From a virus, in IMG/VR virus record IMGVR_UViG_3300035070_003385, positions 1 through 64,000 of that record: a DNA stretch of 64,000 nucleotides; one strand, 5' to 3'. Of this stretch, positions 2,942 to 59,095 are shown in pieces. The notes beneath the pieces were generated by a model. That model saw nothing but the letters and a program-made list of their open reading frames with translations, did not search any database and was not told where the DNA came from. A program made the translations under genes and the position numbers. Numbering within the stretch: position 1 is the stretch's first letter; the number at the start of each line of letters is the position of its first letter.

Positions 2942-4282
2942 TTATTTAAATCTCCTTGGTCCATGTATCCAAATTACGAGTGCATAGCGATTTCCAGTTT
3001 TAATTGGAGTAACTACATGAGGCATATAGCTCGGGAATAGAGAAATAGATCCTCTTTCTCGAACTGCTTGTATTTTATTTCCGTGGTCATCAACAACTAA
3101 ATCGCATCCAGTATAAGAATCTGAATTAGATAATTGAGCTGTAAACGATATTTTTCTTGTTGCTACTGTTCCGTTTCCAGCATCAACATGCCAATCGTAG
3201 TGTCCTGGCACTTCCGCATCGGAAGGATAATGAATAAGCTGCAGTGAGTGCTCGATATGAGATATATCATAGTCGAAGTGAACAGCGTTTGCGACTGATA
3301 CCGCCTTTGCTACCTTATCAAAGATCCATTTATTCTCTTCTATATTTTCAACAGAATAGATTTCAGCTGATCGTATCTTACGAGCAACAGTTCCTTTCGA
3401 GTCTCCACCTACGCTCGCGGATGCAGCATACGAATCGTTCGCTATCTGAATAATACGATCACATTCTTCCTCTGTAAACATCATCTGCGGAAAGGTTTCG
3501 CTGTTAACTGGAAAATATCCAGGCAAAGTGTTGTCTCGGCCTGGAAGTATAACGCCGCCGAATACAGGATCTGGAATAAGCATTTCCTTCTTCTTTTCGA
3601 GCATTTCTTTTAGCGGTGCTTGGTTGTGTTTGTGAACGATAGTTGTATTTTGTTCTTGTTCCTGAGGTTTTGGCTGTTGAACTTGATTTGATTTTACCAT
3701 AGTTTCAGAGGTTTTGTCAATACCTAAACTTGTTCTACCATCCATTGCTTGGTCGGCATGCGGGCCATTTGCATCTACGTAATGTAGGAACACTTGGCAA
3801 TGCCAATTGCCTTTAAACGGCCTTCTCCAATGAACCATTTCAGTACCTTTGTACGCAGCCATTTCTCCTGGTTCCATGGATACTGCCTTTTCTACAGTAC
3901 CATCATCATTCGAAAAATGAATAGGCCAATTTACTTTCGCATCATAACCTAAAGTTAAAGTAGTACTAATTTCACATGCAGGACGGTCCTTATGCTTTTT
4001 GAGTACGTCTCCCGTGCGATAGATGCGCGCATAGGAATATGTTGGAAGTAATTTTTTTCCAACAGCTTTACCTAGCGGTTCAACAATGTTTTGTAAAAGT
4101 GTATCAAACTTCTCATCACCGTATACAGCATCCGAGAGTGGACACTGATCGTCTTGAATAAGTTTTCCATCGGCGTGTAGTTGAAACATATGTTCGACTA
4201 GAGAGTCGCATTGTTCCTTTGTTAAAACATCTTGTAAAACTACATAGCCATTTTCTTCAAAATAATTTGCAGTATCGGTCAT
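2942..4282 (-). CDS. Tandem 2OG-Fe(II) oxygenase (two domains)
   Basis: Two oxygenase domains lie in one chain. The N-terminal domain has iron ligands H97-x-D99 (KKHKDRP) and H151 (MVHWRRPF), with the following arginines as likely 2-oxoglutarate contacts. The C-terminal domain is prolyl-4-hydroxylase-like: H365-x-D367 in HYDWHVDAGNG, H422 in SYMPHVVTP and R432. A Gln/Pro/Lys-rich linker (about 195-235) joins them. Both domains keep their ligands, so both should be active. Such enzymes hydroxylate proteins, sugars or small molecules; the substrate here is unknown. It is followed by two more single-domain oxygenases, apparently one transcription unit from the late promoter at 5453-5460 despite the structural neighbourhood. 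Confidence 0.85.
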   Translation of the reverse strand: MTDTANYFEENGYVVLQDVLTKEQCDSLVEHMFQLHADGKLIQDDQCPLSDAVYGDEKFDTLLQNIVEPLGKAVGKKLLPTYSYARIYRTGDVLKKHKDRPACEISTTLTLGYDAKVNWPIHFSNDDGTVEKAVSMEPGEMAAYKGTEMVHWRRPFKGNWHCQVFLHYVDANGPHADQAMDGRTSLGIDKTSETMVKSNQVQQPKPQEQEQNTTIVHKHNQAPLKEMLEKKKEMLIPDPVFGGVILPGRDNTLPGYFPVNSETFPQMMFTEEECDRIIQIANDSYAASASVGGDSKGTVARKIRSAEIYSVENIEENKWIFDKVAKAVSVANAVHFDYDISHIEHSLQLIHYPSDAEVPGHYDWHVDAGNGTVATRKISFTAQLSNSDSYTGCDLVVDDHGNKIQAVRERGSISLFPSYMPHVVTPIKTGNRYALVIWIHGPRRFK

Positions 4283-4288
4283 AATAAA

Positions 4289-4861
4289 TTATTCTCCATT
4301 CGTATATTGAAATTTGCAAGTCACAACGTATCTTTTATCTTGAGCGCCACTAAAGGGCGGTGAACCACAGTGTGGAATCAATCCATCGAAAACAACCAAC
4401 CGCCCTGGTTTATATGCTGCAGCATATTCTATATTATCGAGCGTCTCATTAAAGAAGAACGTATGTCCTCCCCAATGAATGTTCCAATCCGGATGCGGAT
4501 AGTATAGAGCAGTCTTTGGTTTTTCTAGATGGTTATCATCGATATGAATCGTATCGAAATCGCTCGTTGTAGCAAGATTTACATACTGGCGATGAACTAT
4601 ATAATTCTTAGCGATGTTTTGATCCACGCTATTGAGCCTATTTATAATTCCAAACTCAGTTGCTTCTTCACGCGATCCAAAGGTATACTTAAGTTTATGT
4701 TTTTCGCCGTATATATGAGAACGGAACCCGTCACTAAAGTTTGTTGCAGTGTATGCAAACTGACGAACCTTAATGAACATTCTTGCTACTTCGTCAAAGG
4801 AAAAGAGATCATCGTATATATCGATATTACGGCCGTTTATCTGTATCTTTTTATGTTTCAT
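4289..4861 (-). CDS. 2OG-Fe(II) oxygenase, 190 aa
   Basis: A compact double-stranded beta-helix oxygenase is indicated by H106-x-D108 in DTIHIDDNH, a distal H164 in DGLIPHCGSPP and R177 in DKRYVVTCKF. The sequence between them (WNIHWGGHTFFFNET) matches the core strand before the distal histidine in the 2OG-Fe(II) superfamily. There is no signal peptide. Its start overlaps the stop of the upstream oxygenase gene (ATGA type, positions 4858-4861), implying translational coupling. The substrate cannot be deduced. Confidence 0.8.
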   Translation of the reverse strand: MKHKKIQINGRNIDIYDDLFSFDEVARMFIKVRQFAYTATNFSDGFRSHIYGEKHKLKYTFGSREEATEFGIINRLNSVDQNIAKNYIVHRQYVNLATTSDFDTIHIDDNHLEKPKTALYYPHPDWNIHWGGHTFFFNETLDNIEYAAAYKPGRLVVFDGLIPHCGSPPFSGAQDKRYVVTCKFQYTNGE

Positions 4862-32316: not shown

Positions 32317-34167
32317 TTAGGTAAGGCCCCAATTTTTATTATAATAGGCATTAATGCTTCCTACTGTGATCCTGCCATCAGAACCGCGCCATGGCGGATT
32401 TTGCTCATATGCTTTTGAGCCTCTTTTGTAAACTTCAAAATTATCAGGACGGCCATAATAAGCCGGAGCTGCTTGAATAATTCCAAGATCGCCACCTTTA
32501 TATTTAGCACTTGCAAGATATTTGTCATATACTTCTAATTGCTGAGTTGGGTTCATATTACGAATTTGACTCGTTGTATAACCAAGGCCTTTTGCCGTGG
32601 CAGGTACAAACTGAAACAAACCCGATGCCCCAGAATTTTGATTATATGCAGCAGTATTAAATGCGCTTTCACCGCTAATGATTGCATATAATTGCTGCTT
32701 TTCGAGGCCGGGATATTTACTTTGCATTTCCGCAAGTTTTGTTTGAAACGCTTGATCATTTTCGAGTTCGGCCACGGATGTTTTAACTCCACTGGATGAT
32801 TTTTTAATTGCATCTGCTGCAGAAGAAGTCGAAGCTTCACTGGGTGTTTCTGCTGCGGCCGATGAATTAACTGATTCTTCACCTTCATCTTGTGACGCAT
32901 AACCGCTCGAACCAATCATGCCGCCATCGTAGCTTTCGTTTCTTGTTATACTTATAGATTTACTTACAGGTTCTGGAGCGTCTACAGCTTCAGCTAAACC
33001 TGCGCCTGCAGAATTTGGTTCAACCGCTAAACCTTCTGCCATACGTACGTAATCATCAATGGCAGTAAGTGCAGCACTGATACTCACCTGCGATTCTCCA
33101 CCAATTTTTACGTGCTCAGATTTAATACTTAAATCACCTAATGCATCAAAATACATTATTTCCGATTTTAAATTAATATCATTATTAGCCTGCAGATTTA
33201 TTTTTTTATTTGCTTTTAAATTAATGCCTTCTACATTTGATTCAAGACGTAGCTTTCCACCTCTTATTTGAATTTCTTCACTTGCATTAATAGTAGATTG
33301 CCCGCCAACAGAAAGATAATGATTCCCTCTAACGTTTTGTATTAAATCGCCAGTGATTTCTTCTATCTTATTTCCTTTTACTAAAACCTGTGAATCGCCT
33401 TCTATAGTAACTATGTTTCTACCTTTTACATACACATAATTATTTCTATCATTTATTTGCATTTTATCAGAAATAGATTTATGAATAGTGCTTCCTCGTG
33501 CATCAATCGTGATATAAGAGCCTTCACCGTGATATATAGTAATTCTTTCAGAGCCTGGTGTATCATCCAATTCGATAGAATGATTAGCTGTTTCTATTAC
33601 TCTATTGAATGGGTATTGTGTATTATATGCAGGTGCTGGTTCTGCAAAAAATTCTCGATCTCCGCTATCGGCTTTATCTGGGTTTTGGTCTGCAATACCG
33701 ATATCTTTTACACGAGACATTTCCTGCTGGTGAACATAAGTTTGTTCAATATTTTCCCCGCGCGCCAATTTTGAATTTGCTGGTTGACCCAAGTCAGGCG
33801 GCATTGATCCTTTTGCGAGAATTCTAGAATTTGTTTCTGGTATTTTACCCCAGCCTGTCAAATCCGGATTTATTATTTCAGTCATTTGTGTTGGAATTAA
33901 ACCTAATATCATTGGCTGCTGCGCATCACGTCCGTCAACGAAAAATCCAAATACAAATGAGTTTAAACGCGGTATTTCAGCGTTAGGGTCGTAACTTCCA
34001 TGTATCAGTGTTGCCCAAGGAAGATCTTCAGTTGGGACTTGCTGGGTCGTTCCATGTACTCCAAAGGCACGTACTTGAACTCTTCCTTCAAGGCGATCGT
34101 CGACGTTATTTTCTACAACCCCTATAAAAAATAAAGGATTTAAAATCCCTACGCCAGTTTCCATCAT
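32317..34167 (-). CDS. gp5: Baseplate hub spike gp5 with C-terminal lytic transglycosylase
   Basis: An N-terminal OB-fold (GVVENNVDDRLEGRVQVRAF, then PMILGLIP, about 1-105) is followed by a linker and a triple-stranded beta-helix region (about 200-370), with repeats such as INLKANKKINLQANNDINLK. A Ser/Glu/Ala-rich linker (about 385-460) leads to a C-terminal SLT-type transglycosylase: ISGESAFNTAAYN with its catalytic glutamate and SGASGLFQFVPATA. In T4 gp5 the lysozyme is unrelated and sits before the beta-helix, so domain type and order differ. It punctures the outer membrane and digests peptidoglycan. Confidence 0.88.
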   Translation of the reverse strand: MMETGVGILNPLFFIGVVENNVDDRLEGRVQVRAFGVHGTTQQVPTEDLPWATLIHGSYDPNAEIPRLNSFVFGFFVDGRDAQQPMILGLIPTQMTEIINPDLTGWGKIPETNSRILAKGSMPPDLGQPANSKLARGENIEQTYVHQQEMSRVKDIGIADQNPDKADSGDREFFAEPAPAYNTQYPFNRVIETANHSIELDDTPGSERITIYHGEGSYITIDARGSTIHKSISDKMQINDRNNYVYVKGRNIVTIEGDSQVLVKGNKIEEITGDLIQNVRGNHYLSVGGQSTINASEEIQIRGGKLRLESNVEGINLKANKKINLQANNDINLKSEIMYFDALGDLSIKSEHVKIGGESQVSISAALTAIDDYVRMAEGLAVEPNSAGAGLAEAVDAPEPVSKSISITRNESYDGGMIGSSGYASQDEGEESVNSSAAAETPSEASTSSAADAIKKSSSGVKTSVAELENDQAFQTKLAEMQSKYPGLEKQQLYAIISGESAFNTAAYNQNSGASGLFQFVPATAKGLGYTTSQIRNMNPTQQLEVYDKYLASAKYKGGDLGIIQAAPAYYGRPDNFEVYKRGSKAYEQNPPWRGSDGRITVGSINAYYNKNWGLT

Positions 34168-35492
34168 GTCGTGTTCCAGTCGTACTTAATTAATTTAAGA
34201 GCAGTAGTGTGTACATCTCTTACAAAGTTATGAGTTACCGTATCTATCATATAGTATCCAGATAGTTGTGGATTTAATCCTTTTTTAGATGAGGCAACAA
34301 ATTGAGGTATTTTAATATTTATCATGCCTCCTGCGTTTAAATCTAATCTACCGTTAGCTGTTGCATGGACCATAGTGTTATTTAAATGATGTCGATAAGC
34401 TGTTCTATTTGCAACTATTTCTGGAAGAAACTGATTTCCTCTTAATTGAAATTCTCCGCTATCATCTGCATAATCACGAATTACCATATAACGTTTTTCG
34501 TTTTCTTGAGTAAAATAAGTACTTTTAAATTCAGGAGAATGAATACCTTCATCGGTATTACGCCCCGAGGTGGACAGATATTTTGTTTTTTCTGTTTCAA
34601 AATTATAAGAGTGTGTTGTAGATTTAGTAGGAAGATTTACTCGGCCTCTTACTAAATCTATTTCAATAACGTGGCTACGATATGCGCCAGAACCAAGATC
34701 TTTCATTGTGTTAACGCGATCTTCGTTTTTAATAGTTATAAAATTTTGCATTTGCTGCGAATATTCTTCGCCTGATTTGTCTAAAGCATCACTATAAGTA
34801 AATTCTTTAATGTCGTTAACATTTTTTAATGCCTGATTAATTAAATATTCGTCTGAAACAAAAAAGTGATTGTGAACTGTTTCAAAAAATCTAAAAGAGC
34901 ACGATGGGCTTGTTGTGCTATAAGCACGCTGTGATAAAAAGTTCATTGCTTGAATCGGTGTGTAGTTTGGAATTACACAACGAAATATACCTTCAGTTGG
35001 TTCGACAATTAATCCTGAAGAGTTTTGCGGTGGGCTATAATAATTATCAAAAATAGTTGATGCTATAGTTGATATTTTGTCTTCAAAAGGAGCTGTTATG
35101 CGTCGTGAACTTACATTAAATCTTGATTTTGAAACAAAGTGAATTTCATATCTTAAGCCGTCGTTTGCGTCGTTAATTTCTACATTTTGAATTTTATATA
35201 TTCGCATTTGATAAATTCTACGATTTTTCATAGCGTCTTCAATAGTAAAAATTAAATGTTCCTCGCCGCGAATTGGCAAGTCCTCAAGAAAACCTATATT
35301 ATCAACTATTTCCGCATAACCTTTTATGCAGTCGGAATTAATAGATTCTTCAATCACAAAAACAGGTATGAAGCCTGAAAATTCATTTGAATTTCCTTGA
35401 CCTGAAACTCCTAATTCGATAGATGCAGCTGAATCGGAAACTAATACAGCACTTAATAGCTTGTATTGTCCTGGTAAAATAAATTCACTCAT
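34164..35492 (-). CDS. Baseplate hub protein, gp27-like
   Basis: A 442-residue protein overlapping the gp5 start by 4 bases (ATGA), consistent with stoichiometric hub partners. The sequence is beta-rich with IFTIEDAMKNRRIYQMRIYK and YEIHFVSKSRFNVSSRRITA, typical of the tube-like hub domains of gp27/gpD. T4 gp27 is 391 residues. The assignment rests on gene order and general character, not on an unmistakable motif. Confidence 0.6.
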   Translation of the reverse strand: MSEFILPGQYKLLSAVLVSDSAASIELGVSGQGNSNEFSGFIPVFVIEESINSDCIKGYAEIVDNIGFLEDLPIRGEEHLIFTIEDAMKNRRIYQMRIYKIQNVEINDANDGLRYEIHFVSKSRFNVSSRRITAPFEDKISTIASTIFDNYYSPPQNSSGLIVEPTEGIFRCVIPNYTPIQAMNFLSQRAYSTTSPSCSFRFFETVHNHFFVSDEYLINQALKNVNDIKEFTYSDALDKSGEEYSQQMQNFITIKNEDRVNTMKDLGSGAYRSHVIEIDLVRGRVNLPTKSTTHSYNFETEKTKYLSTSGRNTDEGIHSPEFKSTYFTQENEKRYMVIRDYADDSGEFQLRGNQFLPEIVANRTAYRHHLNNTMVHATANGRLDLNAGGMINIKIPQFVASSKKGLNPQLSGYYMIDTVTHNFVRDVHTTALKLIKYDWNTT

Positions 35493-44583: not shown

Positions 44584-44979
44584 TTATCCGCCTTTCTCTA
44601 ATTTTGTATGGATTGTTTTCAAATTTTCTTTAGTTAAAGTTTTAAGATACATTTTTGCGACTGTTCTATTTACTAAATATGTTTGCTGTATTACATCCAA
44701 GTCTTTATTCTTTTCAGCTTTATGCCATTTAGAAAATCGATTGCGTGGGCGTAGCATTCCTAAATAGTATCTATATTGAGCATCTTCAAATAAATGATGG
44801 CGCATATTCAATTCGTTTGCATGAAGAATAGTATCTTCAAAATATGAAAATCCGCGATTAATAATAAATGCATTATATTGTTTTTCAGTCTGTTGCGGGT
44901 AGTCAGAATCTAAAATTAAATCCTTTTTACTGTGTGAAACTGATTTAATAAAATCAAATGGAGTCAAATCCTTGGCCAT
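44584..44979 (-). CDS. gp62: Clamp loader small subunit gp62
   Basis: The position between gp44 and regA and the sequence pattern (MAKDLTPFDFIKSVSHSKKD, then INRGFSYFEDTILHANELNM and YYLGMLRPRNRFSKWHKAEK) match the phage clamp-loader subunit A family (PF16790 type), which is shorter than T4 gp62 (187). It pairs with gp44 in the 4:1 clamp loader that opens gp45. It starts 26 bases inside the preceding zinc-ribbon gene. Confidence 0.85.
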   Translation of the reverse strand: MAKDLTPFDFIKSVSHSKKDLILDSDYPQQTEKQYNAFIINRGFSYFEDTILHANELNMRHHLFEDAQYRYYLGMLRPRNRFSKWHKAEKNKDLDVIQQTYLVNRTVAKMYLKTLTKENLKTIHTKLEKGG

Positions 44980-45151
44980 ACGCCCTATCCTTTAAATCTG
45001 CGAGTTCATCAAAAGTTTTTGAACATTCACCACACATAGTCGCGGTATGTACACCATCAGCCGATGAATATTGAAGAGTGAAAGAATTATCGGCTGATAA
45101 ATTTACCTTACAGAAAAAACATTCTTTTACCTTTTTCTTTAGAAATTTCAC
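44954..45151 (-). CDS. Zinc-ribbon small protein within clamp-loader operon
   Basis: A 65-residue protein with C-x2-C (ECFFCKV) and C-x2-C (TMCGECSKTF) pairs spaced about 25 residues apart, a single zinc-ribbon. It overlaps both gp44 (4 bases) and gp62 (26 bases), so it is translated with the loader. It is not part of the T4 operon. It might bind RNA, DNA or the loader; function unknown. Confidence 0.7.
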   Translation of the reverse strand: MKFLKKKVKECFFCKVNLSADNSFTLQYSSADGVHTATMCGECSKTFDELADLKDRAYGQGFDSI

Positions 45152-46101
45152 TTGTAACTCGATTCAAACATTACTTCAGTTAAAAACGCAATCATATTAA
45201 TTTCTGTATCCGCAACAAAATGAGCTTTATACATATAATCAGCAAGTGTTACAATAAATCCTGGTAAACTTTTAAGTTCAACTTTATTCGTTGCGGTATC
45301 ATATATGTGGCGAAACATTTCGTTAGTATCTTGGTCACTGTTGTCCGCGCACCACTTACGCATTCCAGTAAAATTTTTTTCTTTTAACATAATGAACAGC
45401 TGTTCAATAGATTCTTCCTTTAGGTTTGTAAAAATACCTTCATCAATACGACCAGACGCAGCATATGTTTGAAGCTCAGTAAGCACGCGTCGGAAATCCG
45501 GAAAATGCTTTTCAATTACCTTTGCAACAACTGTTTTATCGTGATTAATGTTTTCTTGTTCTAAAATAGAAAGAACACGTTTATAGAATTGCGCTGCCAT
45601 TTTTGGCCTGTCGCTTTTTTCGATAGAAAAGTCTATTTCTGATAAACGAGAACGGAGTGGTTCAATAATACGATTTTTAAAATTACACGTAAAAATAAAT
45701 CCGCAATTCTTGGAATATTCTTCAATAAAATTGCGAAGAGCTGGCTGGACAGTTGTGGCGTTTAGATAATCAGCCTCGTCAAGAATAACAAATTTACGTC
45801 CACCCGTAAAAGATACAGATGAAGCAAATGTAGAAATTTCATATCGAAGAGTATCGATACTTACGTTTAATGATCCGTTCTTTACGATATAGTCACAACC
45901 TAGTTCGTTCAGCATTGCTTTTGCAACAGTTGTTTTACCCATACCTGGTCCGCCAGTGAGTAATAGGTTTGGCATATTATCGTCAGCAACAAACTTTTTA
46001 AAAATGTCTTTTGTTTTTTGTGGAAGAATTGTTTCTTCAATTGTATTTGGGCGATACCCTTCGACCCAAAGTACTTCATCAGCTTTTTTGTTCAGTGTCA
46101 T
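45148..46101 (-). CDS. gp44: Clamp loader ATPase gp44
   Basis: AAA+ ATPase: Walker A GGPGMGKTT (residues 50-58), Walker B FVILDEAD (104-111), sensor-1 region CGFIFTCNFKNRII and the arginine motif LRSRLSEIDF in place of the usual S-R-C. The N-terminus LWVEGYRPNTIEETILP is characteristic of the family. At 317 residues it matches T4 gp44 (319). It loads gp45 together with gp62. Confidence 0.95.
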   Translation of the reverse strand: MTLNKKADEVLWVEGYRPNTIEETILPQKTKDIFKKFVADDNMPNLLLTGGPGMGKTTVAKAMLNELGCDYIVKNGSLNVSIDTLRYEISTFASSVSFTGGRKFVILDEADYLNATTVQPALRNFIEEYSKNCGFIFTCNFKNRIIEPLRSRLSEIDFSIEKSDRPKMAAQFYKRVLSILEQENINHDKTVVAKVIEKHFPDFRRVLTELQTYAASGRIDEGIFTNLKEESIEQLFIMLKEKNFTGMRKWCADNSDQDTNEMFRHIYDTATNKVELKSLPGFIVTLADYMYKAHFVADTEINMIAFLTEVMFESSYK

Positions 46102-46200: not shown

Positions 46201-46386
46201 TTATTTTGTTTTTGGATTGTCTGAAACATTATTGGTTTCTTGCTTTGCATAAGAATCTAACTTATCTCGGATTGCTCCGACAGCTGACAATTCACTACCT
46301 TCGATAGCTCCTCTTTTTACACAAATGTCAATAATTGCAATAACGTTATTAATATCCTGTGGTGTAATTTCAATCTTATCTGCCAT
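46201..46386 (-). CDS. Small hypothetical protein after sliding clamp, 61 aa
   Basis: A small acidic helical protein (KIEITPQDINNVIAIIDICV, then KRGAIEGSELSAVGAIRDKL) whose start overlaps the gp45 stop by one base. Similar short proteins accompany gp45 in marine T4-like phages, to my recollection. No motif indicates function. The operon position suggests a replication-associated role. Confidence 0.65.
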   Translation of the reverse strand: MADKIEITPQDINNVIAIIDICVKRGAIEGSELSAVGAIRDKLDSYAKQETNNVSDNPKTK

Positions 46387-47054
46387 TATTCACCTTTTTC
46401 ATATGTTGATTTTGTATCAATGCCAACATAATAAGATACATCAGCTCCTTTAAAATATGAAATTCCTTTAGCGCACAAAGTTATTTCATAATCCTGAGGT
46501 AGCAATTTGAGATTGTCGGTTTTAATGATAATAGTAAACTTATCATTTGTTGTGCCAATTTCAATACCATATGCATCGGCTGTTGGATTTTTACTATCAA
46601 TTGCTCGAAGAAAACATTTCCCATCTTCGCCAACAAACGCAATTTCCTCAAACTGTAAAACTCCAGCTGCTTTTAATACGGATTGGAAATCATCCCATAT
46701 AACATTTACCTTTACATCCTCAGAAGGAATAGATAATTCTTTTTCTGGTGGGGCAATAACCATAGATGGATCTGCATAGACGTATTTTGTTTTTTTCTTA
46801 TTTCCTTCAGAAATAGTAAAAAATTTATCGTTAAATTGAATATCCGGATCTTGGTGAAGGCTTAAAATTGAAAGGAATCTTGAAAGATCATAAACAACAG
46901 CTTGAGATGGAATTTCGTCTTCAAGATTTGCGATTGCGATTAAGGTTTTTTCGGGTGTTACAGTTTTCAATACATTGCCTGGCTTCATAATAATTGATTT
47001 ATTAATTGTTGCAAAGCTTTTGAGAATAGTTAAAGTACGGTCAGATAGTTTCAT
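46386..47054 (-). CDS. gp45: Sliding clamp gp45
   Basis: The start is placed at the ATG at 47054 (MKLSDRTLTILKSFATINKS), which has AGGAGA 8 bases upstream; the longer frame starts inside the promoter leader. Length 222 against 228 in T4. The pattern of two clamp domains (VVYDLSRFLSILSLHQDPDI, then VIWDDFQSVLKAAGVLQFEE) fits gp45, including YYVGIDTK near the end. It is the processivity factor for the polymerase and the co-activator of late transcription. It is driven by a perfect sigma-70 consensus promoter. Confidence 0.93.
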   Translation of the reverse strand: MKLSDRTLTILKSFATINKSIIMKPGNVLKTVTPEKTLIAIANLEDEIPSQAVVYDLSRFLSILSLHQDPDIQFNDKFFTISEGNKKKTKYVYADPSMVIAPPEKELSIPSEDVKVNVIWDDFQSVLKAAGVLQFEEIAFVGEDGKCFLRAIDSKNPTADAYGIEIGTTNDKFTIIIKTDNLKLLPQDYEITLCAKGISYFKGADVSYYVGIDTKSTYEKGE

Positions 47055-47085
47055 TATATAGTTTCTCCTGGTTGTCATTAATATA

Positions 47086-47119: not shown

Positions 47120-47995
47120 TTATGGTCTAAAAGCTCGTTTTGTTTTTTTATAATTTTTAGGGTTAGAACTTTTTGAAGCTGTAGGAGTCATACCCAATGT
47201 GCTTACGGCACCTAAAGATCCTTTAAATATATAACTTCCTACATGTTGCAATTCCATCCATGGACACATATGCAATTTGATTCCAATTTTTGTAGCATTC
47301 CTACAAAAGAAATAATCTTCTGATAAATATCTTTTTGAATTTGGGTCTATTTCGCAATCAAAAAAAGCTGTAATTTCGTGAGTTCCGTCAAAGTTTTTTG
47401 TTCTTACATGGTCTGGAATATATTTAAGTTCTGGATATGCTTCTGAGTATTTTTCCAATACTTCACGTGGTATTAACATAAATCCTGTTCCTGCTTCGCT
47501 TACTGCAACAGGTTCGTTTATTTTAAATGATTTTACACCTTCCGCCATATTAAAAACGTAATCGCCAGCATAATAGTCAAGGTCAAACGGATTTTCATCA
47601 GCCTTTCCTAACTCAACTGCAGTCTTAATTTTTTCCCATGCAATAGTCTTTTTAGGATATGGCCCTGTCATAATATCGTAGTTTTCTGGTTGCATTGTTT
47701 GAATTCCTAATAACGTTAATACGTCATTAGCTTTAAATCCAATATCTGAATCAATAAACATCAAGTGGGTGCAATCCGAGCGAAGAAATTCATCTGCTAC
47801 GTAATTTCTTGCACGCTGAACTAAGCTTTCATTAAACAAATAATAAAACTTAAGCTCAATTCCGTATTTTGCACACATTGCCGAAAGATCGTTAGTCGAT
47901 TTACAAAACGACCCTGCGCATTGACCACCGTACATTGGTGCTCCAATAAATAATTTGTATTTTTGCAAATGTTCTGTTGTAATTTGGATATCCAT
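47120..47995 (-). CDS. GT-A-type glycosyltransferase
   Basis: A nucleotide-sugar-binding signature is clear: LVQRARNYVADEF, then CTHLMFIDSDIGFKANDVLT, with D-x-D as the metal-binding motif of GT-A enzymes. A later E-A-G-T-G-F-M-L segment and SEDYFFCRNATKIGIKLHMC match acceptor/metal regions of such enzymes. It has no membrane segment. It follows DexA and precedes the clamp operon. It could glycosylate modified DNA, virion protein or a host glycan; the modification-gene neighbourhood favours DNA, without proof. Confidence 0.75.
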   Translation of the reverse strand: MDIQITTEHLQKYKLFIGAPMYGGQCAGSFCKSTNDLSAMCAKYGIELKFYYLFNESLVQRARNYVADEFLRSDCTHLMFIDSDIGFKANDVLTLLGIQTMQPENYDIMTGPYPKKTIAWEKIKTAVELGKADENPFDLDYYAGDYVFNMAEGVKSFKINEPVAVSEAGTGFMLIPREVLEKYSEAYPELKYIPDHVRTKNFDGTHEITAFFDCEIDPNSKRYLSEDYFFCRNATKIGIKLHMCPWMELQHVGSYIFKGSLGAVSTLGMTPTASKSSNPKNYKKTKRAFRP

Positions 47996-48005
47996 AATAT
48001 ATTCC

Positions 48006-48632
48006 TTAAAGTAATTCTAAATCGTTTTCTGCACGATGTATTTGTTGAAATCTAATTACGTCAGCAAGAATATCCCAGGCACTATCGTGTTTTTTAAAGT
48101 TTTTATTCCAAGTATTTTCATCGATCATTGGAATAAAACCGTTTTGTTTTGGGAAGTTTAGCTTTGCATCAATATAAGTACGAGTATCGCGAACTTTCCA
48201 ATATTTAAGGTATTCCTCGAGATGAAGCAATTTATCTTCAGCTTCAAAAATACGAGAAAGAATGATTGGGTCAAACGTATTAGAACGGCTCCACCAATAA
48301 TCTATTTTTGGAGAATCAATTAAAAACTCATGAAAGCTTTTTACGAATTCTTTAACTGTTAGATCTGATTTTTTCGGAGAAACATTTGCACGGACCTCAG
48401 GATCTTGCTCTTCCCAAAATTGCAAAGTACTTTTATCAATTTCCCACCCATAGTTTTTAACCTGGTCAGCAACCGAAAGCTTAAACTTTTTTGTTTCGGT
48501 TATACTATTAAGTGTATATGGATTTGACAAAAAGCGATCCATATTAAATACCATTACAGAACAATCTACGATAGCGCACTTTGATGCGTCCTTACCCATA
48601 GTTTCAAAATCAATAATAAAGTGATTACTCAT
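48006..48632 (-). CDS. dexA: DexA-like DEDD exonuclease
   Basis: The first DEDD motif is at residues 8-10 (FIIDFETMG). Later WWSRSNTFDPIILSRIFE gives motif II and KKHDSAWDILADVIRFQQ motif III with H-D. T4 DexA is 227 residues; this is 208. It degrades single-stranded DNA 3' to 5', and in T4 participates in host DNA breakdown or DNA metabolism. It overlaps the C5 methyltransferase stop by 4 bases. Confidence 0.85.
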   Translation of the reverse strand: MSNHFIIDFETMGKDASKCAIVDCSVMVFNMDRFLSNPYTLNSITETKKFKLSVADQVKNYGWEIDKSTLQFWEEQDPEVRANVSPKKSDLTVKEFVKSFHEFLIDSPKIDYWWSRSNTFDPIILSRIFEAEDKLLHLEEYLKYWKVRDTRTYIDAKLNFPKQNGFIPMIDENTWNKNFKKHDSAWDILADVIRFQQIHRAENDLELL

Positions 48633-49843
48633 GCAAAGAATTCCTCCAATGTTGCCATATCAGTTTTCCCGAGCGGATCGTTTTCCATTCTTTCATAATG
48701 ATTATTTTGGCGTAAATAATTTGTATCAGATAGTTTTAATTCTCCACGAATAAACTTACCAATTTCAGTGTGTATATCTCGAGACGTAGGTACTGGCACG
48801 TTCTGGGCAATGTGGTTCATTTTTGCGAGGCCACCAACGAGTTCAAAGTCGTCAGGAAATCCCATCATGTGCAGTGCCTCACGTATAGTTAAAGAACGAT
48901 CGTGGATAGGATGAATAGTATCGGCAAGGTTTCTACCGATTACCGCATTCATACACTCGTTGAAAACATGAGTAGAGCTGTCCCATACTCCTTTACCAGC
49001 CGCAAACTTTTTAATTGCATGATCTGATACCTTAATTCCGCGTTCGTGGCCAATGTCTTTAAACCACTCGTTTGCTTCTTCGAGTAATCCTTGGCGTTGG
49101 ATATACGTAAAGGCAGTAATGTTTTGATTGCGAATTAAAATATCCCTTGGATTTTCGTTTGTTTTGGATTTAAGAAACTGGAAGTATGGTTCATCATCGA
49201 GCTTTTGGTTAATAATTAAATCCTGCTGTAGAGTCTTTTCATCAACCTCAGTTATATAGTCCCTAAAGTTTTTACGATCTCGTTTGTACCAGGACATGAT
49301 TGGAGCTTTTTCTGATTTCCAGCCGATCGCAAAGGTACGATCGCGAGCCTGAGGAATACCGTGATACTTAGTAGAAGTTTTATATAGAGTTAAACTATAA
49401 CCTCTTTTGTTGCAAATGTCAAACAAATTGTTCGCAACTTCACGACCTTTATTTGTATATAGCGCTGGAGCATTCTCAACTACAACTGCCTTTGCTCCGA
49501 ATAAATCAAAACCGTCCTCAAATACTTTGTACATCCATTCGTTTTTTGCACAACCTGCGCCTTTTGCTTCCTCGGTCTTACCAGTATTTAATTGCGATAG
49601 CGCAGCACAAGGTGGAGTACCCGATACAACGTCAACCTTATGAATAGGTGGACCTTCGTCTAGGAGTCGATATTCCAATCCACGACCTTTTACATTATTC
49701 TGATAGTTGACATAGTGACTATCATTTGCCTGAAATCCATCGTAGGAATAGATTGCCTCTGGCGGTTTACCAAAAGCCTTTTCCGCTCCTAGCATTTGGC
49801 CACCGATAAGTGGTATATGTGATGCCCATGTAATATTGCTCAT
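48629..49843 (-). CDS. DNA cytosine-C5 methyltransferase with clamp-like C-terminal tail
   Basis: Catalytic C79 lies in SGTPPCAALSQL (motif IV), followed by motif VI VVVENAPAL (E123-N124) and motif VIII QARDRTFAIGW. Motif I is weak (HIPLIGGQMLGAE). A C-terminal motif X-like segment sits near residue 320 (ADTIHPIHDRSLTIREALHM). The family methylates C5 of cytosine in double-stranded DNA. The last residues are DMATLEEFFA, nearly the same as the neighbouring glycosyltransferase. A candidate sigma-70-type promoter (TTGACA-17-TATAGT) lies inside at 49394-49422. No restriction partner is visible nearby. Confidence 0.88.
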   Translation of the reverse strand: MSNITWASHIPLIGGQMLGAEKAFGKPPEAIYSYDGFQANDSHYVNYQNNVKGRGLEYRLLDEGPPIHKVDVVSGTPPCAALSQLNTGKTEEAKGAGCAKNEWMYKVFEDGFDLFGAKAVVVENAPALYTNKGREVANNLFDICNKRGYSLTLYKTSTKYHGIPQARDRTFAIGWKSEKAPIMSWYKRDRKNFRDYITEVDEKTLQQDLIINQKLDDEPYFQFLKSKTNENPRDILIRNQNITAFTYIQRQGLLEEANEWFKDIGHERGIKVSDHAIKKFAAGKGVWDSSTHVFNECMNAVIGRNLADTIHPIHDRSLTIREALHMMGFPDDFELVGGLAKMNHIAQNVPVPTSRDIHTEIGKFIRGELKLSDTNYLRQNNHYERMENDPLGKTDMATLEEFFA

Positions 49844-49855
49844 TATTCTTATTCC

Positions 49856-51100
49856 TTATGCAAAAAAGTCTTCAAGTGTAGCTACAGTTTTCTTTTTATA
49901 CTTGCTAGTATCCGGGCGGGTATAACTTGGATCCACTGAGGACATAATCTTGTTGTTTATAAATGTACCGTCGTAATATTCTGGTTTAAGAATTGCTTTA
50001 CGCAAATTGGTAAGTACTTGTTCATACCGCTCTTTATTTTCAATAAGAGTCTGCATGCGTTCGTAAAACTCGGATGGAGTCTGTGGACGAAGAAACATCG
50101 GAATGGGCAGATGCCCTTGAGTATCATATGAAGGATGTAAAAAAGGAATTACACCTGCATGTATCATTTCAATATACTTAGATGTAGTCCAACCTTCTTT
50201 AATCGGAATGATGAAGGTAAACTTTACATCTTGTAACTTATTCTGCAGTTCACTAAGATGAAGGGATCCTTTGAAACGGCTGTCATCTCCAATTACATCT
50301 GACCATTTACCATATACTTCTACTTCATTAAACTTATTCAGGACCCATTCCTTGAGTAAGTTATAACGAGATGGTTTACCTTCGTTGAGAACGACCATAA
50401 AGTTTGTATTGCGATCTGTGTTTACTTGTTCACTATATTCATAATCACCACAGAACGCGGTTTCCATACCAGCATATTCTGATTTCACGATACGAGTAAT
50501 ACGTTCCTGGTCTTCGTAGTTACGAATAGCAAACGTCTCATATTCATAATCATACTGACCGAGAGATTTCATCGGCATATGGAATAAATCACGCGGTTGT
50601 TTTATCGTATAGCGAGGATCATTTACGATTTCAACGTAAGGTGGCTTTTCTTCATTCAGCCACGCGATAATTGGAGTCGTGTACCACTTGGACATATCAA
50701 GAGTTGCGGCAGGTTTTCCGTCGTTCCCTTCTCTTACCTTTTGAATACGATTTGGAATAGTTACGTTACTCATTTGACCAATCATCATAATTGTAAAGTC
50801 GAGTGTAATATTTTTTTCCTTAAAGTAGGTAATGATATGATTAAAATAAGCTTCTGACATAGACAATGGAATCCCTTGCCATATATCAATCACGTTATCA
50901 TATGTAAATAATTTGGTTTTTTCGGCATCAGATAGAGTAGCATAATCAGAACGACCTATGATATAAAAATTTTTATCCGGATTGTTATTTGCTACAGCGC
51001 GTAGAGTACACGATGCTTCGTTGTCTCCACCGATTGGAGAATACTTGTTTGTTCTAAATTTAATAGATTTGCCTACTTTTGCAAAGCCAATGTTTTTCAT
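49856..51100 (-). CDS. GT-B-like glycosyltransferase (candidate DNA glycosyltransferase)
   Basis: The 414-residue chain starts MKNIGFAKVGKSIKFR, a GT-B-like opening strand. The C-terminal half matches the layout of T4 beta-glucosyltransferase: EVYGKWSDVIGD, then FTFIIPIKEGWTTSKYIEMI and HAGVIPFLHPSYD, with regularly spaced helices before the tail. The region resembles the donor-binding part of GT-B enzymes (E in YIEMIHAGVIP). The tail is KKKTVATLEDFFA. It lies between the C5 methyltransferase and the HAD gene. A DNA glucosyltransferase role is inferred from neighbours and layout; a GT-B sugar transferase acting on glycans is the alternative. Confidence 0.65.
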   Translation of the reverse strand: MKNIGFAKVGKSIKFRTNKYSPIGGDNEASCTLRAVANNNPDKNFYIIGRSDYATLSDAEKTKLFTYDNVIDIWQGIPLSMSEAYFNHIITYFKEKNITLDFTIMMIGQMSNVTIPNRIQKVREGNDGKPAATLDMSKWYTTPIIAWLNEEKPPYVEIVNDPRYTIKQPRDLFHMPMKSLGQYDYEYETFAIRNYEDQERITRIVKSEYAGMETAFCGDYEYSEQVNTDRNTNFMVVLNEGKPSRYNLLKEWVLNKFNEVEVYGKWSDVIGDDSRFKGSLHLSELQNKLQDVKFTFIIPIKEGWTTSKYIEMIHAGVIPFLHPSYDTQGHLPIPMFLRPQTPSEFYERMQTLIENKERYEQVLTNLRKAILKPEYYDGTFINNKIMSSVDPSYTRPDTSKYKKKTVATLEDFFA

Positions 51101-51101
51101 T

Positions 51102-51464
51102 TTAATCCCATTCTATAAATTTGACAAAGTCTTGCGGTAGCATTGCTTTGTCATCAACATAATAAATGCCGTATGGTTTACCCCATACTATTTCGTCGTA
51201 TGGTACCTCGTGCTTTTCCAACCAATCAGTTGTAATTTTTCCGACATCATCGATGATTTTATTTATATCGCCGTCATGAGTTACCATCCTACGAGCAGTA
51301 TGAATAACTATCCTATAGCCTTTTTCTTTTGCCTTTTTTAAACTATTAATCATTTCTTTTTTGGGACTTGCCATTCCATACTTTTTATGGCTATCTTTTC
51401 TTCCGTGAATTGGAATGCAGATAGTATCGTCAAGATCCATTACTATTGTTTGTTGCGTATTCAT
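51102..51464 (-). CDS. HAD-family phosphatase (polysaccharide-type)
   Basis: HAD motif I is at residues 10-14 (MDLDDTI), motif II RIVIHTARR, and a D-D-K near the C-terminus (YYVDDKAM) as motif IV. At 120 residues it is a minimal capless HAD, similar to phosphatases in capsule and nucleotide-sugar clusters. The start lies inside the C-terminal end of the upstream nucleotidyltransferase gene (35-base overlap). It may remove phosphate from a sugar-phosphate precursor. Confidence 0.75.
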   Translation of the reverse strand: MNTQQTIVMDLDDTICIPIHGRKDSHKKYGMASPKKEMINSLKKAKEKGYRIVIHTARRMVTHDGDINKIIDDVGKITTDWLEKHEVPYDEIVWGKPYGIYYVDDKAMLPQDFVKFIEWD

Positions 51465-52920
51465 TCACATAATCTCTCATTCGTTTTTGCCTATCAGTAC
51501 AGTCATAATGCAGTTTAATACAAGTAGCAATAAGCAACGCACCGCCGTCAATAATTTCATTATACTCTGCTTTATAGTATTTGTCAACTAGTTTTTCAAA
51601 ACTTTTTGCAACATACTCTGGATATTTATGCCCGGTCACTAGTTCATTATAACCGTGGTAAAGATCGTGTGATAGTTTGCACATATCGTATAAGTGATCT
51701 CCACCACATCCTATATGATCACCATAAGAGCCTCGAGGGTCTAACAATGTAATACTGTCGTTGTATGGATTATATAATATGTTTGCGAAATGCAAGTCTC
51801 CATGCATAGCTGCAACTGGTTTTGCTTTTTCGAGACAACGTTTTGCCAAATCATTATAATAATCTTCAGAACATTCTAAACGTTCTGCTGTTTTATCAAC
51901 CCACATTTTTTTAGCATTATTTTGAAAGTCAACTGCAAACTTAAGTGTTGGTTGTTTATGAAAATGATTTTGCATTGCAATAATTACTTTTTCAATCAAA
52001 TAATCTATGGTGCTGTTTGATATATCTTCGTGTGCAAATAAATCAGACAATAAAACACCTGACTCATATGACATTGATAAAGCATAATCATCTTTAAGCA
52101 TCTTAGGAATAAACATACTTTGAACTGAATCGAGCGATTCGTACCAATTCTTTTCGTTCATTATGGTTCGTACCGCAAAGGTATTATTGTGAGATGGGAT
52201 TTTTGTAATAACGTTAATATCTGATTTGTATTCAAAAGAATTAAATTCACGTGCTTTGAATGTAAGGAACTCAGCGCAAGTTTTATGATATGACGCAATG
52301 TCTCCAATATCATACCAACGCTCAGTGCTTATATTATTAAACTTGACATTATATCCATACAATTCAAGCGCGTCGGATATATCATACTCTTTTGTATTAA
52401 TAAATGACTGCGCAGCTTTAAACCCATCAGCAAAACTATATAAACCTACGAGTGCTACCGCATCTCTAACAGTTTCTTTAGGTTTATTATAATACTGATT
52501 TCCATCCCACATACACCATGCAGAGTGATCTTCAACTTTTTTAGTTAAAAGAAAGTCTTCACCCAATGGCATGTTTTCTTCAAGGATAATAGCATCGCCT
52601 AACCAAACTACAAGAGGATTTGCAAAATCTAACAAAGATTGACATCCAACCGCTATAGCATCACGGGGACCGTTTAACGATCCCTGCTTTACACATTCAA
52701 TATTATTATATTTGCTTTTAGATGCCCATTCACGTATATCATTATGCTTGCCATCAACAATAATAATTTTACCTACATCAGGGGTGTTTTTATAAATGGA
52801 CTCAATGATATATTCAATTGTAGGCTTTCCGTGAACTCTGACCATAGCCTTTGAGCAATTTGATGTTAAAGGCCGAAGTCGAGTTGCTTCACCTGCTGCT
52901 GGTATTACTACATTGATCAT
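51430..52920 (-). CDS. Bifunctional nucleotidyltransferase/phosphotransferase (LicC/LicA-like fusion)
   Basis: Start at 52920 (MINVVIPAAGEATRLRPLTS), with GGAGAG upstream. The N-terminal domain (about 1-230) is a sugar-phosphate or phosphocholine nucleotidyltransferase: G-E-A-T-R-L-R-P and KAMVRVHGKPTIEYIIE. The C-terminal domain (about 260-480) is an APH/choline-kinase type phosphotransferase: HGDLHFANILYN with the catalytic Asp, then LLDPRGSYGD. Fusions of this sort make activated alcohol or sugar donors. A sigma-70 consensus lies inside (51559-51587). The substrate is unknown; a link to the neighbouring glycosyltransferases is inference. Confidence 0.78.
   Translation of the reverse strand: MINVVIPAAGEATRLRPLTSNCSKAMVRVHGKPTIEYIIESIYKNTPDVGKIIIVDGKHNDIREWASKSKYNNIECVKQGSLNGPRDAIAVGCQSLLDFANPLVVWLGDAIILEENMPLGEDFLLTKKVEDHSAWCMWDGNQYYNKPKETVRDAVALVGLYSFADGFKAAQSFINTKEYDISDALELYGYNVKFNNISTERWYDIGDIASYHKTCAEFLTFKAREFNSFEYKSDINVITKIPSHNNTFAVRTIMNEKNWYESLDSVQSMFIPKMLKDDYALSMSYESGVLLSDLFAHEDISNSTIDYLIEKVIIAMQNHFHKQPTLKFAVDFQNNAKKMWVDKTAERLECSEDYYNDLAKRCLEKAKPVAAMHGDLHFANILYNPYNDSITLLDPRGSYGDHIGCGGDHLYDMCKLSHDLYHGYNELVTGHKYPEYVAKSFEKLVDKYYKAEYNEIIDGGALLIATCIKLHYDCTDRQKRMRDYVNEYATNNSNGS
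51559..51587 (-). promoter_or_regulatory. Sigma-70 consensus promoter inside the nucleotidyltransferase gene
   Basis: TTGACA (51587-51582), 17 bases, TATAAT (51564-51559) on the minus strand. It would feed the HAD gene and the genes downstream. Being inside coding sequence it may be chance, but the match is complete. Confidence 0.5.
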
Positions 52921-53557
52921 ACTGTTCTCTCCATGCATCGTATTCATCTTCAAGATTAACCCACTGCATTTTTGTATATTGCGTTTTCGTAGAAAATCGT
53001 CTATCCCATATTATCCACATATAGGCAATCATCCCTCCTATTTGATCCTTCTTTTCAATAGGTTCAACAAGGCCAGAATTAAATTTAGCGCGATCTGATA
53101 AAAATATTATATCACTTGGTGGGTTATTTGTAAATAGTTTTTTTCTCTTTTTTCCTTCAAGAAACGTTAAGCGAAGAAACATTGCAGTATAACTGTATTC
53201 ATCAATCCACTTTTCAGCCAACTTACGAGGCAGGTCCTTATGATACGGTGGATTAGTTACTACACCTTCGGCAAAGTCTTGCTTTGGAGTCTCAAGAGCG
53301 TCGTGTGATGTATTTATGCTACATAGAGAGTCTTCGTATTCGTGTAGGTCATGACTTAAAACATTATGACCATTTCGAGCAAGTTCAACAGAAATGTTAC
53401 CCTTTCCTGCGCAGGGTTCAAAAATGTTTTGCGGTGGTCTATTATATTTGCATAACACGTGGGTAGCGAGCGGAGGAGTTGGGTAGAAATCGTTTTTCTT
53501 ACGATTTGGGTCGTTCTTTTTTACGCCAACGTATATATCGCTAAGACTACTTGCCAT
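52889..53557 (-). CDS. NPPY-type DNA methyltransferase-like protein
   Basis: The N-terminus KKNDFYPTPPLATHVL leads into the SAM-binding FEPCAGKGNISVELA, and the catalytic motif is VVTNPPYHKDL (NPPY). The order SAM region before NPPY fits N6-adenine or N4-cytosine amino-methyltransferases. At 222 residues there is no obvious target-recognition domain, so it might act as a small orphan enzyme. It overlaps the start of the nucleotidyltransferase by 32 bases and sits beside dCMP deaminase. Confidence 0.8.
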   Translation of the reverse strand: MASSLSDIYVGVKKNDPNRKKNDFYPTPPLATHVLCKYNRPPQNIFEPCAGKGNISVELARNGHNVLSHDLHEYEDSLCSINTSHDALETPKQDFAEGVVTNPPYHKDLPRKLAEKWIDEYSYTAMFLRLTFLEGKKRKKLFTNNPPSDIIFLSDRAKFNSGLVEPIEKKDQIGGMIAYMWIIWDRRFSTKTQYTKMQWVNLEDEYDAWREQYDQCSNTSSR

Positions 53558-53560
53558 TAA

Positions 53561-54070
53561 TTAAACCTCCAAAACAGTAACTTGCACGCCGCTTTCTTTA
53601 AACATTGGCAAACTTTGTTGTTCCCATACTTCTTGCCAATTACCTTTATCAGTTTTATCTGTTGGTATTACTACACGTTTGACACCAGCTTGAATGACGC
53701 ACTTAGAACATGAAGGGCAAACTGGCAATCCATAAACGTACAAAGTTGCATCTTTAAGACTTACACCTGAATACAAAGCATTCATAAGAGCATTCATTTC
53801 AGCATGAACAATACGTGGATATTTTTCATCTTTATTATTCAGACGTTCTTCAGTATCAGCAATACCTTTTGGAAAACCATTATAACCAGTAGCAAGAATA
53901 CGGCGTTCATCATTTACAGCCACTGCGCCAATTTTACTTGAAGGATCTTTGCTCCAAGTAGAAATCATTTTAGCCATATCCATAAAACGGTTATCCCATT
54001 TTAGTTCTTTTTCGTCTTGTTCTTTATGCATTCTTCGTATACTTTCCTCATAAAATTCATATTCAGCCAT
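53561..54070 (-). CDS. dCMP deaminase
   Basis: Zinc and catalytic residues are clear: H89-A-E91 (VHAEMNAL) and C118-x2-C121 (VCPSCSKC), with the family segment IGAVAVNDERRILATGYNGF. This is the cytidine/deoxycytidylate deaminase family, of the type encoded by T4 gene cd. It converts dCMP to dUMP and so feeds dTMP synthesis, and it balances dCMP use by the dCMP hydroxymethylase at 58424-59095. Its start overlaps a small upstream stop (TAATG). Confidence 0.92.
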   Translation of the reverse strand: MAEYEFYEESIRRMHKEQDEKELKWDNRFMDMAKMISTWSKDPSSKIGAVAVNDERRILATGYNGFPKGIADTEERLNNKDEKYPRIVHAEMNALMNALYSGVSLKDATLYVYGLPVCPSCSKCVIQAGVKRVVIPTDKTDKGNWQEVWEQQSLPMFKESGVQVTVLEV

Positions 54071-58423: not shown

Positions 58424-59095
58424 TTATTTTACAAGATTAAAGTGGCGTTCGTAAACATGTAGGTTCATTACCTGCCAAGTAAGATCACCTTTTGTGATTT
58501 CATATCCTGCTTGATGCAAATCACTAACAGCACGATCCATAAGATGTTGAGCCCAAGCATAATCGTTCTTGTAACCAAAGACTACATCATTTGATCGCAT
58601 TTGAGATACCATATGCAACTTACCATCACGGATATAGAATGTTTGTGCATTGGTACAGATGAAATCAGACTTGCCACCTTCGTTGAATTCAACCCAGATT
58701 GATGGGCGATTGTAAATCATTTGAGCACGACGGCTATCTGGATTTGCAATCAGCTCATCAATTGCGTTATAATATTGATTATAAAACTTTGGCGAATTAA
58801 CTAGGTGGCCATAGTTCGAATTAATATTACCATGTGTATCTGCTGCGTATTTCCAAGCTGCAGGTGGTTCTTTACCTGCACCATGAATATCATAAATGTT
58901 AATAGATCCGCTTTCATACCAAGCCAACTCAGCATCAATATATTCCTGTTTTGGAGTACCAAAGATTGAAGGCTCGTCGGCAATAAAACTTGCACCTAGA
59001 ATTTCAATAGTTTTCTGACCAGTTTTATCGGTCGTAAACCGTTCTGCCTTGAGTTCTTCAATAAAATAGTTACGAATATCATTTACTTTTTGCAT
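58424..59095 (-). CDS. gp42: dCMP hydroxymethylase (T4 gp42 type)
   Basis: Close over its whole length to T4 gp42: TTDKTGQKTIEILGASFIAD, GNINSNYGHLV, NPDSRRAQMIYNRPSIW, SDFICTNAQTFYIRD and MRSNDVVFGYKNDYAW. The catalytic cysteine is C147 (T4 C148). D178 in KNDYAW corresponds to T4 D179, which selects dCMP over dUMP and separates the enzyme from thymidylate synthase. The chain stops at 223 residues, about 20 short of T4. It makes 5-hydroxymethyl-dCMP with methylene-tetrahydrofolate. It overlaps the next gene upstream by one base. Confidence 0.93.
   Translation of the reverse strand: MQKVNDIRNYFIEELKAERFTTDKTGQKTIEILGASFIADEPSIFGTPKQEYIDAELAWYESGSINIYDIHGAGKEPPAAWKYAADTHGNINSNYGHLVNSPKFYNQYYNAIDELIANPDSRRAQMIYNRPSIWVEFNEGGKSDFICTNAQTFYIRDGKLHMVSQMRSNDVVFGYKNDYAWAQHLMDRAVSDLHQAGYEITKGDLTWQVMNLHVYERHFNLVK

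Follow-up and report, generated by a model that had tools for sequence, protein, structure and literature searches.

Gene content of the locus

The window, that is the whole 64,000-nucleotide stretch analysed, covers the opening 64 kb of an IMG/VR record of 182,738 bases from a T4-superfamily (T4-like) marine phage. Two adjoining ORFs with a shared C-terminal tail had been proposed on its minus strand, and both were confirmed there. They encode a C5 cytosine DNA methyltransferase of 404 aa (48629..49843; PF00145, E=1.4e-20) and a GT-B glycosyltransferase (GT) of 414 aa (49856..51100), whose closest fold is T4 beta-glucosyltransferase (BGT). The methyltransferase ends in ATLEEFFA and the GT in ATLEDFFA, and the two enzymes are unrelated. 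The C-terminal sequences are KTDMATLEEFFA for the methyltransferase and KKTVATLEDFFA for the GT, with the tails TLEEFFA at 48632..48652 and TLEDFFA at 49859..49879 (both minus strand).

Six other genes of this region, also on the minus strand, have no such tail. A DexA-like exonuclease gene (48006..48632; phrog_255, 1.2e-33) overlaps the methyltransferase stop with its start. Beyond the GT lie a HAD-family phosphatase (51102..51464; weak PNKP/HAD match, phrog_1238; ending in FIEWD), which belongs to the sugar-supply genes, a sugar nucleotidyltransferase-type protein for sugar-donor supply (51430..52953; PF00483, 4.3e-14), a second DNA methyltransferase with an NPPY motif (52889..53557; phrog_799, 5.2e-42; ending in CSNTSSR), a dCMP deaminase (53561..54070; phrog_174, 6.6e-49) and a T4 gp42-like deoxycytidylate hydroxymethylase for hydroxymethyl-dCMP supply (58424..59095; 1b49, E=2.1e-64). 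The hydroxymethylase keeps the KNDYAW motif (T4 Asp179), and its gene is present in 7/7 genomes.

Since this hydroxymethylase is present and the genome has no Tet_JBP match, hydroxymethylcytosine is probably made at the nucleotide level and glycosylated later; the lack of a Tet_JBP match also rules out an MT-TET-GT pathway in this phage. It is the dCMP hydroxymethylase gene that points to the GT as a putative hydroxymethylcytosine glycosyltransferase, and the substrate assigned to the methyltransferase is putative as well. A T4 gp56-type dCTPase was sought in the phage and none was found, and complete replacement of cytosine is therefore uncertain.

The gene of the gp45 sliding clamp (46386..47078, minus strand; phrog_223, 6.5e-68; T4 and RB69 gp45 structures at E ~1e-25) had been placed 2-4 kb away, a distance to be corrected to ~1.6 kb downstream of the methyltransferase. 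Downstream of gp45, inspection of the minus strand revealed the clamp loader large subunit (gp44-like; 45148..46101), from its position and AAA+ sequence, and what is presumably the small subunit (gp62-like; 44584..44979), from the T4-like gene order. Between the exonuclease and gp45 lies a conserved 291-aa protein (47120-47995; phrog_1574, no Pfam family), and L368 and L353 have a similar gene immediately upstream of gp45.

Methyltransferase and glycosyltransferase

The PF00145 domain of the methyltransferase contains the motif IV Cys, the motif VI EN and the motif VIII QxRxR, its invariant sites being the catalytic C79, ENAP at 123-126, QxRxR at 165-169 and motif X N348. The top Foldseek matches were M.HaeIII, M.HhaI and DNMT1-type enzymes. 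A CmoX-type carboxymethyltransferase, in which Arg replaces the motif X Asn (M.HhaI N304) (PMC12783734), was ruled out, since every aligned homologue retains Asn348 in its AQNVP motif; the equivalence of Asn348 and N304 was set by the motif and not by superposition of structures.

The GT gave no match to Pfam, including its BGT family, or to PHROG, and no meaningful solved relative was found by sequence search. The top solved structure in a Foldseek search with its AlphaFold2 model (pLDDT 85) was T4 BGT (1nzd, E=7.8e-10), with a TM-score by target of 0.57-0.66.

Both models finish in a short helix that lies outside the enzyme body (residues 399-403 at the end of the methyltransferase model, 409-413 in the GT), and confidence is lower in the last blocks. 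The pLDDT by block falls toward the C-terminus from 92 to 76 to 72 in the methyltransferase and from 94 to 79 to 59 in the GT.

Conservation of the tails

The two tails were the top-scoring pair among the 28,441 pairs formed by the 239 C-termini of the genome. The strict tail motif is expected by chance ~0.01 times per genome from residue frequencies, a figure ~3.6 times higher by the internal density of the motif, and it was observed 3 times per genome in all surveyed genomes with gp43, the methyltransferase and the GT.

Loss of the tail among homologues would have spoken against the clamp-tether proposal, but the tail proved to be conserved, in 70/78 C-termini of the methyltransferase and 68/79 of the GT; distinct C-termini were counted, as IMG/VR contigs are redundant. 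Most of the 8 methyltransferase relatives without it have near-variants such as TLESFI and DTLEAFI, and the 11 GT relatives comprise one truncated ORF, XG4, an Enterococcus protein and a group at 28-30% identity. In representative alignments, the tail Leu is kept in 29/29 and 25/26 sequences, with F/W in 29/29 and F in 26/26 at the first aromatic position. Column entropy is 1.3-1.45 bits in the linker versus 0.6-0.9 in the tail. The tail appears as an added extension, and the distant relatives tested stop short of it. Neither the GT of Enterococcus phage 9183 nor the S-TIM5 methyltransferase has a tail, and both phages are without a phrog_223 (gp45) match, which does not prove them clampless.

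The adjacency of the two genes, together with a homing endonuclease beside gp43 that bears an almost identical copy of the polymerase C-terminus (L377), might suggest a recent, functionless copying of a C-terminal fragment between neighbours. Codon usage and conservation make this hardly credible: as already noticed for Leu, Phe and Ala in the first-pass annotation, the tails are written with different synonymous codons (methyltransferase/GT: Leu TTG/CTT, Glu GAG/GAA, Phe TTC/TTT, Ala GCA/GCT), homologues use more than one Leu codon and either Phe codon at the tail positions, and the motif is retained among sequences of roughly 50 to 100% identity whose linkers change. Small hydrophobic C-terminal residues can serve as protease signals, and the tail could in principle be a degradation or turnover signal, or a stabiliser of the fold, that resembles the end of gp43 by convergence. 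This is very unlikely, given that a nearly fixed L-x-x-F-F is followed by different final residues (A, G, V, T, S) or by none, that the polymerase has the tail too and that distant homologues manage without it.

The polymerase end and the clamp

The phage's own gp43, encoded just past the window (genome 64760-67288; phrog_262, 1.5e-289), ends in DTLESFFV. Across seven related genomes, the tail is consistent only on gp43, the methyltransferase and the GT, and gp43 ends within the lineage include TLEDFFG, SLESFFM and TIEDFFS. Isolates show ASLEFLFG (S-RIM2), TLESFFG (Vibrio R10Z), ATLFDMFDF (VR25) and the diverged CLEDFM (Milchi), and the motif is absent from the Kuttervirus polymerase C-terminus examined. 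In one genome (G001, L159-L161) gp43 is in two ORFs around an inserted 249-aa ORF, and in two others (G032, G034) it also matches in two pieces.

In T4, gp43 ends in SLDFLFG (ASLDFLFG), gp55 in SLDFLYEAND and gp33 in TLDFLL. These motifs are known gp45 ligands and freely interchangeable, with linkers that accept substitutions (PMC2988020), and RB69 gp43 has this motif at the same end, where it is the ligand crystallised with gp45 (PMC3012046, PMC2988020). The tails described here share with this T4-type motif the extreme C-terminal [S/T]-L-[D/E]-x-[F/L]-[F/L], a divergent, flexible linker and the presence on the phage's own gp43, and a gp45 with a hydrophobic pocket is encoded; they differ in being located on DNA-modification enzymes. 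The parallel drawn earlier with gp55 and gp33 holds for the T4 proteins but not for the lineage of this phage, since the C-terminal motif is absent from the gp55 and gp33 homologues in all genomes checked. In the present genome these tail-less proteins are encoded at 70120-70680 and 98125-98358 (L002:6120-6680, L003:15125-15358). The gp45 pocket of the lineage seems to be common to the polymerase and the modification enzymes, instead of gp55 and gp33, and late transcription may not be coupled to the clamp in the same way as in T4. An exchange of clamp ligands, as it appears here, prompts one to ask how these phages control their late genes.

The RB69 gp45 pocket is formed by Tyr39, Ile107, Phe109, Trp199, Val217, Arg32 and Lys204 (PMC3012046). 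Among 52 related clamps, position 39 is I/V/L, 107 I/L, 109 I/L/V and 217 Y/F, with rare exceptions, while RB69 W199 is replaced by C/S and R32 by I/V. The pocket would thus be hydrophobic but remodelled, which is compatible, though as a suggestion only, with a shift from SLDFLF to TLExFF. The change of these two basic or aromatic residues counts against docking in gp45 and leaves room for another replisome or host partner that is also touched by gp43 (e.g. SSB, helicase or RNA polymerase), the more so as the link between the tail and gp45 is one of sequence. Such a partner is nevertheless unlikely: the same motif at the end of RB69 gp43 was crystallised on gp45 (PMC3012046, PMC2988020), and the tested distant homologues without a tail come mostly from phages without a detected gp45.

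Proposed role of the tails

Taken at the level of sequence, these data support the clamp-tether interpretation of the first-pass annotation: the tail is very probably a gp43-type C-terminal gp45-binding address tag that would tether DNA-acting modification enzymes to the clamp. From this we infer physical binding to gp45, timing at the fork and the substrates of the two enzymes. The folded enzyme would be followed by a short variable linker and by [T/S/N/G]-L-[E]-x-F-[F/L/M], which would dock in the hydrophobic pocket of gp45, its proposed partner. With the GT and the C5 methyltransferase tethered to loaded clamps, new phage DNA could be modified quickly and processively, and the tether would aim the methyltransferase at phage, not host, DNA. 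Hydroxymethyl-dCMP made by the gp42-like enzyme would be polymerised into DNA, the tethered GT would glycosylate the hydroxymethylcytosine and the tethered methyltransferase would methylate leftover cytosines. Modification just behind the fork, as first proposed, is plausible, but a clamp loaded anywhere on phage DNA would serve equally.

Two further observations run counter to the clamp tether. The second methyltransferase of the operon (52889-53557) is DNA-acting yet tail-less. In XG4, gp45 and a polymerase tail (ASLDDLFM) are present, yet the GT (42% identity) and the methyltransferase (48%) are tail-less; at least one relative with a clamp can therefore do without the tether. No close IMG/VR relatives of the XG4 enzymes were found in a search for them, and the tail-less clamp-bearing branch therefore consists of one phage.

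T4 alpha-glucosyltransferase was reportedly found bound to gp45 by Sommer in 2004. This binding was shown in vitro and confirmed in 2026, in a study that judged it not to be the main determinant of the share or predominance of alpha-glucosylation and in which T4 beta-GT does not bind gp45 (PMC13216743); that judgement on alpha-GT also counts against the clamp tether. The GT described here would, like alpha-GT, be a phage hydroxymethylcytosine glycosyltransferase associated with gp45, which on the side of the present GT is putative; unlike it, the GT is BGT-like in fold, whereas alpha-GT ends in KEQFDIITK and has no such tail. DNMT1, a C5 cytosine methyltransferase with a PCNA-binding motif, binds PCNA (PMC9690074) and is a precedent for the clamp tether proposed for the phage methyltransferase. 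DNMT1 differs in being a eukaryotic maintenance enzyme with an unrelated regulatory region; what the phage enzyme carries is a short tail at its C-terminus.

If the clamp tether is true, phage DNA hypermodification would be physically coupled to replication via a simple, portable peptide. Such a coupling would account both for modification that does not fall behind the fork and for its targeting to phage DNA.

Tails on other phage DNA-modification enzymes

A scan of the collection for TLE[DE]FFx followed by TAA, a sample that is not random, yielded at least 81 stretches and at least 77 real ORFs; the 77 listed comprise 64 gp43 polymerases and 13 other proteins. Among the matches listed, the latter are one TET/JBP dioxygenase, one group 1 glycosyltransferase, one N6_N4 methyltransferase, 7 members of the unknown family phrog_13881, one GIY-YIG and one HNH endonuclease and one unknown protein. 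The genes neighbouring the matches add amino acid:DNA transferase (ADDT, PF18724) and GNAT proteins.

A survey of 52 TET loci plus isolates, again by distinct C-termini, found the tail on 31/33 TET, 13/17 ADDT and 11/12 GNAT proteins, and it is present on TAGT (PF20691) in 9/9; at the same TET loci it was found on none of 11 GATase and none of 17 gp46 C-termini. Within the annotated phage collection, the tail is present on the polymerase, TET and TAGT of the cultured phage DLP6; in C48C1 it is borne by a D12 adenine methyltransferase as well as by TET and the polymerase. The Cr30 polymerase (ADLSSLFD) has a variant motif in common with a TAGT-like protein that falls short of the family cut-off (SDLSKLF). 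No tail is present on TET from HTVC112P, P12024L or S-CBWM1, three phages that gave no phrog_223 match.

The tail is thus present on at least six unrelated families (C5 methyltransferase, BGT-fold GT, TET/JBP, TAGT, ADDT and GNAT), and also on single N4/N6 and D12 adenine methyltransferases. The families that carry it work on DNA after its polymerisation or have genes alongside those of enzymes that do, and the small-molecule neighbours tested are tail-less. It is likely that T4-type phages use the gp43-type clamp tail as a general address tag, which would place whole DNA-hypermodification pathways on the replication clamp. The TET/TAGT/ADDT enzymes share the clamp-like tail (TET and TAGT of DLP6, TET of C48C1) with the enzymes of the window, but their chemistry is different, the present phage being without a TET match and using a dCMP hydroxymethylase. 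In the open-access papers searched, no report of the tail on phage modification enzymes was found. Phages with a clear motif, the cultured DLP6 among them, open the old debate over T4 alpha-GT and gp45 to experiment. The tail also offers a sequence rule for finding DNA-modifying enzymes among hypothetical proteins, namely a C-terminus in common with the phage's own gp43.

By this feature phrog_13881 (~345 aa, ending in TLEDFF) is a candidate new DNA-modifying enzyme. It occurs in L353, where it is near gp45, and in L356, L357, L358, L374, L401 and L411, and Aeromonas T4-like phages (44RR, for example) encode distant relatives that have hypothetical annotations. GNAT, ADDT and TET/JBP genes lie in one operon, each with a clamp-like tail, in L364 (1766-5884) and L387 (4429-7389), and L364 also encodes a 117-aa protein with the C-terminus NTLEMFLA (4084-4437). 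The D12 class adenine methyltransferase of C48C1 (33480-34364; L470:14480-15364) adjoins gp43 and ends in STLDAFFG. Tails of the form TLEDFFG or TLEEFFV are also found on two homing endonucleases, a GIY-YIG/NUMOD3 enzyme directly beside the gp43 end (L377:4640-5455) and an HNH enzyme (L387:8005-8676).
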